The translations under genes and the position numbers were made by a program. 33,058 bases of DNA from a bacterium (GTDB lineage Bacteria > Patescibacteriota > Dojkabacteria > SC72 > WJKH01), in the NCBI GenBank assembly GCA_029547225.1, contig JAKPPS010000012.1:1-33058 (forward strand), read 5' to 3'. Positions 4,678-16,554 of the stretch are shown one piece after another. Positions within the stretch are counted from its first letter, which is position 1, and every line of letters begins with the position of its first letter. Below the pieces are notes generated by a model that worked only from the letters and a program-made list of their open reading frames with translations, was not told where the DNA came from and did not search any database.

Positions 4678-7194
4678 TTAGAAAGACGGCAAAGGTGGAA
4701 GCTTTGCAGATTCCGTAGGAGCTGACTCAACTACAGCCAATTCGGATCGAGAATTTATTTCCTGAGTTACTACATTCACATCTCGACCATATTTAAGACG
4801 AGATATTTGCTTGATTGTAGCTGCAATCTCTTTGTCAGGTTTCATATCAAAACCAGACTTTGGATGCCATGATCCCCACCCTGGTTCCATAGAGAACGGA
4901 TTAGGATAACGTCCTGAAGCTAAGAGTTTGACATAGTAATGTTCATTAGCTTGATTCATGAGATCCTCAGAAGTAAAAATCGGCTCGAAATACTGCTGAA
5001 GAAACTCAGCATCTTCAGGACCAGGACGAGCAATAAGCATGGTACCGACATTACCAAAAATCGCCTTTTTAATATTATCTTCGAGCTGACCAATGTACTG
5101 ATTTGCGACGGTAAGATTTAAGTGATATTTTCTAGCTTCAGACAATATCGAAGCAAAGGCTTCAGTAGCAAAGTTTTGAAACTCATCAACATAGAAAAAG
5201 AAGTCTCTACGGTCATTCTCGTCAGGAATATCTTCACGGCTTAATGCAGCAGAAACAATCTTTGAGATTATCAGTAAGCCAAGAAATTGGGAGTTCTCTT
5301 CACCCATAAGTCCTTTAGCAAGGTTAATAATAAGTATCTTCCCCGAATCCATAACTTCACGAATATCAAACGATGATTTAGACTGAGTAATAATATTACG
5401 CATAGCAAGATTGGTTACAAAACGGTCAAATTTTGACGTGATATAGCCAAGTGTCTCAGATTTATGAAAATCATTAGTTTTCGCTATCTGGTCAGTCCAA
5501 TATCTTTTAACAAGATCATCCTTAATAATCGGTAACCATTTTTCATCAACCCATTTTTGATCTGTTAATATTCTTAAAACTTCAAGCAATGTAGAACCTT
5601 CTTTAGACATAGCTGTCAACATAGAGTTACGAACAGCTCTCTCAAGTATAGGTCCAACGATACCTTGATTATGAGGGTCATAAAGCTTTTTTAATAGATC
5701 AATAAAACCGTTGATTATCCTATGCTTATCCTGCTCACTTTTAAACTCCATCATGTTAAATCCAAATGGTCTATCAAAATCTGCAGCGTTGACATATATT
5801 ACATCTTCAATCCTTTCATAAGGGATTCTCTCTAAAAGCATTTCAGCTGTAGTTCCATGGGGATCCAAAAAGCACAGACCGTCACCATTCATAATATCTT
5901 GATACATCATACGAGTCATTAAACGAGATTTACCAGAACCAGTTTGACCTAAGATATACGAGTGATATCGCCTATCTCTCCGTTCGAAACAGATCTGCTT
6001 CTTAACTCCACGATAATAATTATTTCCTAACCAGATAGTATCTTTTGAACCGATTTCAGAGCTAATCCAATTAGCAGCGGGAGCTTCCTTTGATAACAAC
6101 CAGTTAATGTTTGGTGTTGTAACATTTTTGTTCGGCATGTGGTATATTGTCGCAAGTTCCTCAATATTCAATATTGTTTTAACACTCAAAGGCAATCTTC
6201 GATAAATAACATTCTCAATAAAATCCCTCTCCTTTAATCGATTGAGCTTATCTTTCTTCAACTCATTTATACCAGGATTAGTAAATTGACTAAATGCTCC
6301 AACAATATTATTAAGATGCATATCAGCAATATCCTCCTGAGGAGCAACCGTAACAATCCTTATCGCCGTATAATAGCCTATTTTAGAAGTCTTTTTACTT
6401 ACCGCTTGCATTTGTTCTTGGCTGACATGGATTTTCTCCTTTTCTGGATCTGAGTTGTTTGATTCGACTCGTTCAACAAACTTCCTACCATTTTTTTGCC
6501 ATTTCTTCTCTGCCGGTGAAATAACAACCTGTATCATGGCTCCCTCACCTTCCTGCAATTTACTAATTGTACTTAGAATATTTGCAAGAGGATCACCTTT
6601 GAAATCCTCAGCACCTTTTAAAGGATAATAAACTTCATCAGACAAAACTAAACTTGCATATGAGACCTTTGAATTAGAACTAAAAATATTGTATTCATCA
6701 ACAATATTTACTTCGGCATCCTGATAAGAACCTAGAATTTGTTTTTCAACTAAATCGGCAAGTTTCTTCGGGGCATAAACATAGAAATGAATCTCACCTG
6801 GAAAAGCTGCAATCTCAAAACTAATAGAATGATTTACGGTCAAATGTTTCAAAATACCCTTACCTCTTCCACCCATTCCATAAAGATTCGCAAACATTTG
6901 CTCAGCAACGCCAATCTCAATCTCATTACCTCTTGGAACTTTAATTTCCATTACAACGCCCTTCTTTGTTTTATCTGCACGATCCTTTTTCTTCATGTTA
7001 CGTACAATATAAAAGAAAAGAAAGACACAAAGAGCTATTAATATAATGATTAATGGTATTACACCCCATAAATATCCATAATCCCTATCAGGTGTTACTA
7101 CCGGTTCACGCGTAGTTGTTGTAGTAGATGGGACAGGCCCAACAGTTTGTGCATACAATGTGTTTTGAATAACAGTTGGATTCATAAAATTCAT
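4678..7194 (-). CDS. Membrane-anchored VirD4/TraG/TraM-recognition-type T4SS-like ATPase
   Basis: N-terminal TM, Walker A ILGQTGSGKSRL, CFLDPHGTTAEMLLERIP, Walker B FFFYVDEFQNFATEAF. Confidence 0.8.
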   Translation of the reverse strand: MNFMNPTVIQNTLYAQTVGPVPSTTTTTREPVVTPDRDYGYLWGVIPLIIILIALCVFLFFYIVRNMKKKDRADKTKKGVVMEIKVPRGNEIEIGVAEQMFANLYGMGGRGKGILKHLTVNHSISFEIAAFPGEIHFYVYAPKKLADLVEKQILGSYQDAEVNIVDEYNIFSSNSKVSYASLVLSDEVYYPLKGAEDFKGDPLANILSTISKLQEGEGAMIQVVISPAEKKWQKNGRKFVERVESNNSDPEKEKIHVSQEQMQAVSKKTSKIGYYTAIRIVTVAPQEDIADMHLNNIVGAFSQFTNPGINELKKDKLNRLKERDFIENVIYRRLPLSVKTILNIEELATIYHMPNKNVTTPNINWLLSKEAPAANWISSEIGSKDTIWLGNNYYRGVKKQICFERRDRRYHSYILGQTGSGKSRLMTRMMYQDIMNGDGLCFLDPHGTTAEMLLERIPYERIEDVIYVNAADFDRPFGFNMMEFKSEQDKHRIINGFIDLLKKLYDPHNQGIVGPILERAVRNSMLTAMSKEGSTLLEVLRILTDQKWVDEKWLPIIKDDLVKRYWTDQIAKTNDFHKSETLGYITSKFDRFVTNLAMRNIITQSKSSFDIREVMDSGKILIINLAKGLMGEENSQFLGLLIISKIVSAALSREDIPDENDRRDFFFYVDEFQNFATEAFASILSEARKYHLNLTVANQYIGQLEDNIKKAIFGNVGTMLIARPGPEDAEFLQQYFEPIFTSEDLMNQANEHYYVKLLASGRYPNPFSMEPGWGSWHPKSGFDMKPDKEIAATIKQISRLKYGRDVNVVTQEINSRSELAVVESAPTESAKLPPLPSF

Positions 7195-8657: not shown

Positions 8658-11570
8658 CTACAGTTTAATTTTCCAAACTCTTAAACCATCAAGAACATAT
8701 AGGTAATTTTCATCCCAATCGGTAACTAATTCCTTAACATCGTTAAAAACATCATCGCGATTTCCCCTATAAACATACTGTTTAATAAAAACAAGTGAAT
8801 CTGTATGCAGACCTGTCTCATCGTTAGGTTTCTCCAAAACAATTATCCTTTTATTAGGTTCGTCCCATAAATACATTTTATGATTGACTGTCCAGAACGA
8901 GAATGCACATGTAATATCTTGTATTGGTGGATTAACACCATTTACTGCTATACCTAAGTCATCACCTCCTGAAAAATAGTACCTGCTAACCGCATCAGAA
9001 CCACCTGAGAACGCATAAATAAAATTATCTGCAAAAAGATCATTTATCTGAGCAAAACTACTATCAGAAACGAAGAGTTGAGGAAATCCATAAGCATTTC
9101 CGACATTTGGAGCCTTATATATCGATTTGTCGGTACGGCTAGTGTAGAAAATACTATCCTCTCCGCCGAAAATTGCTAAATCTGTAATACCCTTCTCTGA
9201 TAATGAGCTGCCCGTCAGAGGTGACAAAGAAACAAAATTAGTATAATTACCATCTTCTCCGAGGCTCGACCTTATCATGCCGGCAGATTTATCGTAAACA
9301 AAAACATCTCCATCAATACCAATATCGATATTCTCAGGAGAAGCAACAATCGCACCCTCATCATTTATTTTTGTAAGCTTCTTGTCATACAAAGATAGTC
9401 TATACACAGATTTAGTTCCTCTGTCTGTTACAAAGAGAAATTGATTACCTGCAGTATTCTTATTGGATATCATATCAGTTGGATTAGCGCTATCTCCAAA
9501 AGTAATTTTTGCATCGATAAATAGCTCAAAGTTTCCGCTATCTTCAGAAATACCGACTCTTCGATAAATTATATCTTCAACCTTTGTCGCTCGTGCCTTA
9601 AGATCATTTATTATTTGAATATCTTTCTCCCATAACACGATTTCTTCTGCTGACGCAATCTTACTATTAGCATTTATAATATTAGTTTGAGCAAGCGTTG
9701 GATTCTCACGAACTACTCTTTCTGCCTCATCAACGAGAGTCACTGATTCCTGATAAAACTGATCTACTTGTTTATGAACTTCACTTTCATTTTTTGAAAT
9801 TATAATAAATCTAATCCCAAAGAACAGAACAATGGCAACAAGCAAAATAATGATTATTAATCCAATTCTTTTCTTTCGCTGATCACTATATCTGTATCCA
9901 TCTATTTTCATACCCTTGATTTGTCCACGAGGCCTTGAAATCTGCATTTGAGATATCCTTGCCATCAACTTTTTATACCACATCTTGCGGCCCAACTTGT
10001 CATCAATAGATACTTTAACCTTATTTCCAACATTATCAATCTTCTCTCCAACTTTTCCTACTCCACCGCCTAATACTCCTGATATTTTCAACAACCAATT
10101 CCAGAATTTTTTTAGTGCATGCCCAATCTTGATAAAGAAAACTCGTAGGTTATATATGAATTTTTTAAATTTACTGTTACCGACATATGGTGCTGGCAAG
10201 ACTAGTTTTTCCTCAGCGATATTTGTCCCAGAAGTAACCGACAGATTTTCCGTTGGATTATCAGTATAATTAGCACCTGTTTCACGAACCTCACCATTTT
10301 CTAGTATTTTCTCACCTACTGTTTCACGCGATATGTCACTTGGATTTTCGATATCACCACCGACACTACCTGTTTCACGGTCACTTTCTGATAATTGATC
10401 AGCAATTGAACTCGTTGTTTTCTCATCGGAATACCTTGGAATTTCAAAAGCAAGATCTTCTTTATTATCTACTTCATGATAATCCTTGACTGATGGATTG
10501 TGAAATTCGCCATCTCCTATTTCATCATCTAGACCTTCTTCTGAATCGTCATCCTCTTCATGAACATCGATATTTTTATCAATTTCACTCTCTTGCTTAT
10601 CAAGATCAATAAAATCATATTCAACACCTTCTCGAGTAACTTCAGTTTCAACTTTCATTTCAGTATACTGAGTAATTACGATATCTTTACCATCTAATTC
10701 TGATTCTTTGAGTGGACCTTCTATTATTTCTTCTATGGCCTCATCTTCTTTATTCTTTTTTGCAGATATTTCGCCATTGCTATCATATTCATCCTCCTTG
10801 TCAACACTATTATCTGGCTGGTTAAGATCTGGGACTTTTTCTCCTGTCAGGTTGTTGTTAAAATCATTATCTCTCAGGTCATGATTCCCATCTATTATTC
10901 GGTTAATTGATTCATCAACTTTCGGTGTTTCTTCGGTGCTGGTAGGTTCGATAGTATTTATTGATGAGTCAAGTTGCGATTTTAAAGGTTCCTGCATTGA
11001 AGAAATGAAATATCCTTGATCTTCTGACACTTCATCTGCAATTTTATCCATTGTATCTAAGGAAAATTGTTGAGATTTTATTTTCTCCCCAGCAAGTTTA
11101 GTAGCAACAATAAGATAATCATCTCGTTCTATAGCCGAACTACCTGCTACAACCTTATGATTATCAAGTATTTCTCCCACATCTATATATTTATTATTTC
11201 GCCAAAGCAATATTTGCTGATCACCCAATCTTGCAACATAAAGGCTATTGCCCCGAATTGATAAAATCGTAAGATTAAGATTAACACCTGTATTTTCCAG
11301 ATACTCATCACCACGAATAAGGTTACGAAGTTCATACTCACCTGCCTTTAATGCAGATTTAAGCGAATCCAAAGGTCCGAATTGACTTGAAAGATATTTC
11401 TCAATAACTGCATCCCAGACGAACTTTATTATTCTGTCTACAGGATAATCTGCAATTGGATCAACACCAATTAGTGCTATAACCTCTCCCTTTGCTGAGA
11501 AAATATTAGGATTTGTTGGAAGATATCGCAATACAGAAGTATTATTTGATGTGTAACCTTTAATATACAT
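8658..11570 (-). CDS. PP2C-like (probably pseudoenzyme) domain, long acidic linker, TM segment, beta-propeller-like C-terminus
   Basis: N-terminus LTILSIRGNSLYVARLGDQQILLWRNNKY matches the PP2C fold core; acidic 250-450 region; TM IGLIIIILLVAIVLFFGIRFIII; C-terminus with repeated beta units (FLFVTDRGTKSVYRLSL, DSIFYTSRTDKSIYKAP, NYLYVLDGLRVWKI). Confidence 0.65.
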   Translation of the reverse strand: MYIKGYTSNNTSVLRYLPTNPNIFSAKGEVIALIGVDPIADYPVDRIIKFVWDAVIEKYLSSQFGPLDSLKSALKAGEYELRNLIRGDEYLENTGVNLNLTILSIRGNSLYVARLGDQQILLWRNNKYIDVGEILDNHKVVAGSSAIERDDYLIVATKLAGEKIKSQQFSLDTMDKIADEVSEDQGYFISSMQEPLKSQLDSSINTIEPTSTEETPKVDESINRIIDGNHDLRDNDFNNNLTGEKVPDLNQPDNSVDKEDEYDSNGEISAKKNKEDEAIEEIIEGPLKESELDGKDIVITQYTEMKVETEVTREGVEYDFIDLDKQESEIDKNIDVHEEDDDSEEGLDDEIGDGEFHNPSVKDYHEVDNKEDLAFEIPRYSDEKTTSSIADQLSESDRETGSVGGDIENPSDISRETVGEKILENGEVRETGANYTDNPTENLSVTSGTNIAEEKLVLPAPYVGNSKFKKFIYNLRVFFIKIGHALKKFWNWLLKISGVLGGGVGKVGEKIDNVGNKVKVSIDDKLGRKMWYKKLMARISQMQISRPRGQIKGMKIDGYRYSDQRKKRIGLIIIILLVAIVLFFGIRFIIISKNESEVHKQVDQFYQESVTLVDEAERVVRENPTLAQTNIINANSKIASAEEIVLWEKDIQIINDLKARATKVEDIIYRRVGISEDSGNFELFIDAKITFGDSANPTDMISNKNTAGNQFLFVTDRGTKSVYRLSLYDKKLTKINDEGAIVASPENIDIGIDGDVFVYDKSAGMIRSSLGEDGNYTNFVSLSPLTGSSLSEKGITDLAIFGGEDSIFYTSRTDKSIYKAPNVGNAYGFPQLFVSDSSFAQINDLFADNFIYAFSGGSDAVSRYYFSGGDDLGIAVNGVNPPIQDITCAFSFWTVNHKMYLWDEPNKRIIVLEKPNDETGLHTDSLVFIKQYVYRGNRDDVFNDVKELVTDWDENYLYVLDGLRVWKIKL

Positions 11571-14983: not shown

Positions 14984-15730
14984 TTATTTACTCTTACTTA
15001 CAATTACTCTTGCTGGACGAACAATAAGATCAGTACCAGACATAATGTAACCATCTTGCATTACCTGAGCAATATGTCCCTCTTTACCCTCATAAACTAC
15101 TCCCAAAGCCTCATGTCTTAATGAATCAAAAACATCTCCATCCTTACAACCCATTGCTACTACGCCTAAGGTTTCCAAAGAGCGATGTAATTTACGCATC
15201 GTTGCGATCATACCATCCAGCCAAGCAGATACTGATTGGTCGATTTGCATTTTCTCTTTTGCTTGATAAGCCAATTCTATTTCATCAATAATCCCTATTA
15301 TTTCCATCGCTGATTTAGCCTTAAGTTGTTTTATTACTATCTCATTTCTCTTATCATTATCTCTTTGCATGTTTGCATAATCAGCAAGAGCTTTCTTCAG
15401 TTGAGTAGTAATTTTTTCATTTTCAAAACGTAACTTTTGCGCTATCAAGACGACTTCATCAAGATTTTTTTGTAGTTCGTTTACATCTTTACTATTACTT
15501 GTATTACTCTGACGACTTTCCCGATTAATAGACGCATCCTTACCAGTACTTGATTTTACGCAATCCTGACACCCTTCACATTTTGATTTATCTGAGCAAT
15601 TATTATTACCACCTTGATTATCAGAGCAACAATTGCACTCCTGACATTCACATTCGTTGCATTGACAATCTTCGCTGCAATTACATTTTTCTTCTTTCTT
15701 TATATCTCTGTTATCCATATCATCCATCAA
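14984..15730 (-). CDS. grpE: GrpE nucleotide exchange factor with Cys-rich N-terminal extension
   Basis: LADYANMQRDNDKRNE... and MQDGYIMSGTDLIVRPARVIVSK are GrpE hallmarks; between hrcA and dnaK. Confidence 0.93.
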   Translation of the reverse strand: MMDDMDNRDIKKEEKCNCSEDCQCNECECQECNCCSDNQGGNNNCSDKSKCEGCQDCVKSSTGKDASINRESRQSNTSNSKDVNELQKNLDEVVLIAQKLRFENEKITTQLKKALADYANMQRDNDKRNEIVIKQLKAKSAMEIIGIIDEIELAYQAKEKMQIDQSVSAWLDGMIATMRKLHRSLETLGVVAMGCKDGDVFDSLRHEALGVVYEGKEGHIAQVMQDGYIMSGTDLIVRPARVIVSKSK

Positions 15731-15739
15731 TAAAATAAA

Positions 15740-16495
15740 TTATCTCCAACCTCTTAAAGATTGTTCAACTGCGTTTCTTACAAGACGCATCGTACTCAAA
15801 GACCTAGCGTAATCTAATCTTTTCGAGCCAATCACGCCATAATATATTACTTCTCTATCCCAGAATGGCATACGGCCAAATACTATTGCACAATCGCTCA
15901 AATCATCAAGACCTGTTTCTTCACCAATTAGCATACCGATCTCTTCAGACTGGTATCTTTCAAAAAGAGATCTCAATAATTTTTCATCTTCAAGAATGTC
16001 AAAGATCCTTTGCATTACATTTACTTGCTTCATCTCCTCATAACGCATAAGAGAAGAAACACCATAATATCTGACACCACCCTCTGTAAGTACGAAACTG
16101 ACACTTTTAGAGTATTTCGCCAAAATATCAAGTATCGATCTAATCAACTTCTCTCTTTCAAAGCGATCTCTAAAAACTTCTTGCTTTAAAACTGCTTCCT
16201 CCTGTGCATCCAATGCTTTATCAAGACCAAGCTGCTTAACATACAACCTCAAAGCCTGATCAGTTGGCAATCGGCCAGAAGAAATATGGCTTTTAACCAA
16301 ATAGCCAAGCTCCATTAATCTCATCATTTCATTACGGATAGTAGCCGAACTGACACCGAGATTATACTTGTCAACTATCAGGTGCGAGCTTACCTCATCA
16401 GCATTTTCGATATATTCGCTGATAATAGCTTTTAATATTTCTAACTGTCGATGAGTTAACTCCATGATGTTATGACCCAATTTAGCTACTAACAC
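15740..16495 (-). CDS. hrcA: Heat-inducible repressor HrcA (start more likely at about 16465, MELTHRQLEIL...)
   Basis: LTHRQLEILKAIISEYIE..., VSSATIRNEMMRLMELGYLVKSHISSGRLPTDQALRLYV; C-terminal YYGVSSLMRYEEM... IGEE... GVIGSKRLDYARS. Confidence 0.93.
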   Translation of the reverse strand: MLVAKLGHNIMELTHRQLEILKAIISEYIENADEVSSHLIVDKYNLGVSSATIRNEMMRLMELGYLVKSHISSGRLPTDQALRLYVKQLGLDKALDAQEEAVLKQEVFRDRFEREKLIRSILDILAKYSKSVSFVLTEGGVRYYGVSSLMRYEEMKQVNVMQRIFDILEDEKLLRSLFERYQSEEIGMLIGEETGLDDLSDCAIVFGRMPFWDREVIYYGVIGSKRLDYARSLSTMRLVRNAVEQSLRGWR

Positions 16496-16527: not shown

Positions 16528-16554
16528 TTAGCACTCTACGACATTGACTGCTAA
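16528..16554. promoter_or_regulatory. CIRCE operator
   Basis: TTAGCACTC-N9-GACTGCTAA; one mismatch from consensus TTAGCACTC-N9-GAGTGCTAA. Confidence 0.93.

Follow-up and report, generated by a model that had tools for sequence, protein, structure and literature searches.

A cysteine-rich N-terminal tail on a Dojkabacteria GrpE, a candidate metallothionein-like extension of a heat-shock co-chaperone

Of all the parts of the essential chaperone machine to which GrpE belongs, the N-terminal tail of GrpE is the one least understood. These tails are disordered and diverse, and competition with clients has been proposed for them without structural proof (PMC8215388, PMC12987570). The locus studied here raises the question of what such a tail might do when it is packed with cysteines. 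The window, i.e., the whole stretch of DNA that we analyzed, is a contig of 33,058 bases (C59) from a Dojkabacteria (WS6; Patescibacteria) genome of 1.01 Mb that is 84% complete and in which a single grpE was found. No cysteine-rich or metallothionein-like GrpE was described in the open-access papers that we found. Judged by its sequence, the protein is a real and unusual variant, new as a cysteine-tailed GrpE within a family that is itself known.

The window protein resembles the rest of the GrpE family (PF01025) in fold, operon, stalk, beta domain and disordered N-terminus. The genes hrcA, grpE and dnaK form an operon behind a near-perfect CIRCE element, with 12 bases between the hrcA stop codon and the grpE ATG (Table 1). 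The GrpE profile matched residues 73-245 (E = 1.5e-26; 93.5 bits versus a cut-off of 25.8; profile positions 4-165 of 165). An AlphaFold2 model built with 50 relatives placed the long dimerisation helix, a second helix (residues 164-186, pLDDT >90) and the beta domain, and all 12 significant Foldseek matches (E ≤ 0.001) were GrpE or GrpEL1. As modelled, the window protein is a genuine member of the GrpE family, the nucleotide exchange factors of DnaK, with its fold intact. A 3-residue turn was the sole regular structure predicted in the tail, and the cysteine stretch, itself flexible, stops about 22 residues ahead of the stalk. The model contains no metal and is therefore silent on whether metal would order the tail.

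Table 1. Features of the heat-shock locus in the window and of the GrpE that it encodes (residues numbered from ATG 15727)
Feature	Positions	Strand	Evidence
CIRCE operator, upstream of hrcA-grpE-dnaK	16528..16554		pattern match, 1 mismatch; 0 expected in shuffles
hrcA, repressor, about 241 aa, upstream of grpE	15740..16465	-	PF01628 (E = 7e-16), PF03444; sequence
grpE, 247 aa	14984..15727	-	ORF; ATG 15727 (alternatives TTG 15730, ATG 15718)
GrpE disordered N-terminal tail, residues 1-78	15494..15727	-	AlphaFold2, pLDDT about 50-60
GrpE cysteine cluster, residues 15-56: CNCSEDCQCNECECQECNCCSDNQGGNNNCSDKSKCEGCQDC	15560..15685	-	direct sequence; 13 Cys
GrpE long dimerisation helix, residues 79-159	15251..15493	-	AlphaFold2 model, pLDDT >90
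GrpE beta domain, residues 189-244	14996..15163	-	AlphaFold2 model, pLDDT >90
dnaK, 646 aa	12960..14900	-	PF00012 (E = 2.5e-253)

Whether the tail belongs to the protein depends on the start codon, and the sequence-only reading that had drawn attention to this GrpE allowed that the true start might lie downstream. Between codons 4 and 94 there is no ATG, GTG or TTG, and an ATT at codon 67 is the sole other start-like codon between the cysteine stretch and the stalk. The TTG at codon 94, which is the next of the start-type codons, is located inside the long helix, so that a downstream start would destroy the GrpE stalk; beyond the N-terminal starts, the next in-frame ATG is codon 120. The tail is therefore translated if GrpE keeps its stalk, and a downstream start was ruled out. 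The start itself is fixed to a range of a few codons, namely TTG 15730, ATG 15727 or ATG 15718, and the two ATGs are likelier than the TTG. The N-terminus quoted in the sequence-only reading agrees letter by letter with the DNA, except that its leading 'MM' takes the less likely TTG.

The count given there, 13 cysteines in about 45 residues before the coiled coil, was confirmed by direct sequence. The cysteines occupy positions 15, 17, 21, 23, 26, 28, 31, 33, 34, 44, 50, 53 and 56, and the first nine are spaced CxC-x3-CxC-x2-CxC-x2-CxCC. A 14th cysteine lies in the core, in the beta domain region, and the long helix has none. The first 60 residues are 22% cysteine, contain no aromatic residue, histidine or leucine, and have a net charge of -8. 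We sampled the proteome by reading about 900 kb of the 1.01 Mb in stretches, which yielded 957 largely non-overlapping ORFs with 1.09% cysteine among their residues. The GrpE tail (13 per 45 residues) was the densest of them all, and the runners-up, with 9 per 45, were long, extracellular-looking proteins. At a frequency of 1.09%, the binomial probability of at least 13 cysteines in 45 residues is 1.5e-15, or about 4e-10 occurrences expected over the sampled proteome. The motif CxCx(2,3)CxC, picked post hoc, was found three times in the tail versus 0.4 in shuffles of the same residues (P about 0.004), and the counts of CxC and CxxC taken alone were not above shuffles of the tail residues. No tandem DNA repeat was found beneath the cysteine stretch, ruling out a repeat expansion in the window copy. 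Its cysteine codons are mixed, with 7 TGT and 6 TGC versus 1743 and 614 among those sampled ORFs that reach 150 aa or more.

A tail shared by close relatives, whose absence the sequence-only reading had named as a ground for refutation, was not seen at the family level. Indeed, the GrpE of the one same-family genome compared (G001), only 35% identical to the window GrpE, has neither the tail nor any cysteine before the stalk, and most of the window's order has a GrpE without a cysteine-rich tail. Among 76 Dojkabacteria GrpEs with automatically assigned starts, there was no cysteine before the core in 65, one in four and two in three, while 4, 6, 11 and 13 cysteines were each seen once. The tail with 11 (CCHCECECCEDGECEECEDCKECLDC; N-terminus MSKNKQDSEFHKDKDKEHNVENEECCHCECECCEDGECEECEDCKECLDCKK) belongs to G064, a genome from a different order, where it sits at the same position as the window cluster and grpE likewise follows hrcA; its coding DNA looks repetitive and all its cysteine codons are TGT. 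Two genomes of the window's order carry CCGCHDCKCC (G030) and CHCENCDC (G018) at the same GrpE position, both in an hrcA-grpE-dnaK arrangement. The earlier claim that canonical GrpE has no such module held in 103 GrpEs from other Patescibacteria, mostly picked by long frames or high scores and not at random, which had a maximum of 3 cysteines (ECQECRVC, G333) and a few instances of CxxC. Some of these share pre-stalk cysteines with the window protein, but only 2-3 of them (e.g., TCENC in G139 and CAKC in G166); in ordinary GrpEs the tail is charged rather than cysteine-rich.

In the GrpE-core tree, the label 'at least 4 Cys' requires four changes. Forcing the 13-Cys protein of the window genome (G000) and the 11-Cys protein of G064 into one clade cost 73 log units (p-AU 6e-5), by which a single origin of these two tails was rejected, albeit on long branches. 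A clade of the three order members with at least 4 cysteines was also disfavoured (p 0.014). Because the first pair was rejected as one clade, the sequences favour repeated gain of a cysteine-rich tail as the simpler reading; repeated loss of an ancestral module may be an alternative. As far as these genomes tell, the tail is lineage-restricted and sporadic in Dojkabacteria, with at least two separate occurrences. That comparable clusters turn up again at this site in distantly related Dojkabacteria argues in favour of a function.

Searches for a known module in the tail returned no Pfam family at E ≤ 10, metallothioneins included, and the G064 tail had no match in NCBIfam. The sole PDB sequence match to the window tail, scytovirin (E = 0.033), was rejected as a low-complexity cysteine match. 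A free-standing cysteine module shared across the class was rejected as well: only noise (L297-L299, E 0.02-0.17) came out when 87 genomes were searched at the protein level, although this search was not sensitive, since it also missed the G064 GrpE tail.

These data bear on several readings of the tail. It is unlikely that it is a lineage-specific quirk, arisen perhaps by short repeat expansion and tolerated with no dedicated function. A patchy distribution that skips the nearest relatives would fit such a quirk, as would the high variability and disorder of GrpE N-termini (PMC8215388, PMC12987570) and the repetitive, all-TGT coding DNA of G064. However, the window copy has mixed codons and no DNA repeat, the separate occurrences share an identical site, and drift to 13 cysteines in 42 residues is very unlikely because cysteine is rare in this genome (1.1%). 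A thiol redox switch, in which oxidised tail cysteines would form disulfides within or between GrpE protomers, is possible though doubtful. Oxidation would alter the oligomeric state or slow ADP exchange on DnaK, with clients held until reduction. The CxxC spacings of the tail are consistent with a switch, and a thiol-sensitive precedent is known in vertebrate GrpEL2, where the stalk residue Cys87 forms an inter-protomer disulfide that weakens Hsp70 binding (PMC12987570). In addition, the cysteines of the window DnaK are limited to positions 315 and 538, and a valine occupies the position of E. coli Cys15, so a sensor would have to sit elsewhere. Yet human GrpEL2, with its proposed thiol sensing, relies on one stalk cysteine, whereas the cysteines of the window GrpE are many, lie in a flexible stretch ahead of the stalk rather than in a helix, and leave the long helix without any cysteine able to cross-link the protomers. 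Thirteen of them far exceed the needs of a switch. Scanning about 900 kb for motifs turned up no WCGPC-type thioredoxin motif that could serve re-reduction, a weak result because the genome is incomplete and the motifs are crude. Dojkabacteria are also thought to be anaerobic fermenters, which speaks against a redox switch.

Two further proposals tie the tail directly to the DnaK cycle. It is improbable that the tail regulates nucleotide exchange under the control of metal or thiols, as a device that evolved more than once in Dojkabacteria. Metal loading or oxidation would then fold or cross-link both tails of the GrpE dimer and alter how DnaK releases ADP; GrpE would work as a sensor coupling the Hsp70 cycle to metal or redox stress. 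We consider it highly improbable that the tail acts as a modified pseudo-substrate or docking tail in the DnaK substrate cycle, tuned by metal loading. For E. coli GrpE, the N-tail was proposed to vie with clients over binding in the DnaK groove (Brehmer 2004, cited by PMC8215388). Nevertheless, the window tail is devoid of the hydrophobic or leucine-rich stretch that DnaK prefers, and no structure has the N-tail in the groove (PMC12987570).

The reading that we prefer, at a rough probability of 45%, is that of a metallothionein-like tail binding soft metals on a heat-shock-controlled co-chaperone. The naturally disordered N-terminal tail would have turned into a metallothionein-like thiolate cluster, its 13 thiols binding soft metal ions (Zn2+, Cu+, Cd2+), as suggested by an acidic, flexible tail without aromatic residues, histidine or leucine. 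Metal binding, a role in buffering and any influence on nucleotide exchange by DnaK are each inferred. The metallothionein-like reading is supported by a cysteine density that greatly exceeds chance and has no equal in the sampled proteome, and by the rhythmic spacing of the first nine cysteines (CxC-x(2,3)). It is weakened by the absence of the tail in the same-family genome and in most of the order, and by the lack of a Pfam match and of histidine. The likeness to metallothioneins that had been proposed earlier thus stands for the cysteine-dense, disordered and acidic composition free of aromatics and falls short at the level of a Pfam metallothionein match. Those bacterial metallothioneins whose structures are known take their fold around metal, often with histidine among the ligands. 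They share with the window tail a high cysteine content and CxC and CxxC spacing (SmtA/BmtA, PflQ2MT), and the tail displays the CxC/CxxC arrays and paucity of aromatics used to recognize metallothioneins (13 cysteines in 42 residues, no aromatic). In contrast to these free-standing proteins, the window cluster is a tail. As SmtA binds 3-4 Zn(II), PflQ2MT 3 and TvMT 4 (PMC10612145), the GrpE tail would, by analogy, take up perhaps 3-4 metal ions per chain.

In a bacterium whose gene set is very small, an abundant heat-shock protein under CIRCE/HrcA control could also serve to buffer or sequester metal through its tail. This buffering role is supported by the CIRCE element, HrcA control and the precedent of Helicobacter pylori HspA, an intact heat-shock co-chaperone that also has an appended tail rich in metal ligands. 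The likeness is one of analogy, not homology, since HspA is a GroES with a C-terminal tail of histidine and cysteine, whereas the window protein is a GrpE with an N-terminal tail using cysteine only. The HspA extension binds nickel in vitro, and cells from which it has been deleted contain less intracellular nickel and are more sensitive to the metal (PMC3856676). Nickel binding has thus been demonstrated for HspA, while metal binding by the GrpE tail is a prediction. If the metallothionein-like reading is true, a reduced-genome bacterium would have put metal handling onto a heat-shock protein. The protein would also have no precedent that we could find among bacterial GrpEs in being loaded with metal or thiols, a trait that would have arisen two or more times within a single class, and such a thiolate cluster would offer a testable handle on the effect of the tail upon the DnaK cycle.

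In Dojkabacteria, the N-terminus of GrpE seems prone to acquiring extra modules. In family f7, the GrpE of L016 (G057) is N-terminally fused to a YecM domain (PF06185, E = 1.1e-11), and L018 (G051) and L037 (G044) look similar by eye, with open frames of 330-334 aa across the three. GrpE in L268 (G072) and L263 (G063) carries an N-terminal domain of another kind, about 150 aa long and without a significant match in Pfam, and long grpE frames similar to these two (open frames of 296-316 aa) were observed in G062, G073, G075, G078 and G079. No GrpE over the Pfam cut-off was found in G004, G008 and G012, three genomes of genus g5 in the window's order that are 68-75% complete, for which grpE loss or genome incompleteness are possible explanations.

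Other genes of the window deserve mention. The usual bacterial HrcA is about 100 aa longer than the one encoded here, and frame lengths comparable to the window HrcA were seen in relatives from L007, L030 and L273. Positions 8658-11570 (- strand) encode a 970-aa protein with one transmembrane segment and no Pfam match, in which, by eye, the N-terminal part resembles a PP2C-like phosphatase domain and the C-terminal part a repeat propeller. An 838-aa protein (4678-7194, - strand) has a T4SS coupling-protein/HerA-like ATPase domain (PF10412, PF02534), and an smpB-like gene is located two genes away.
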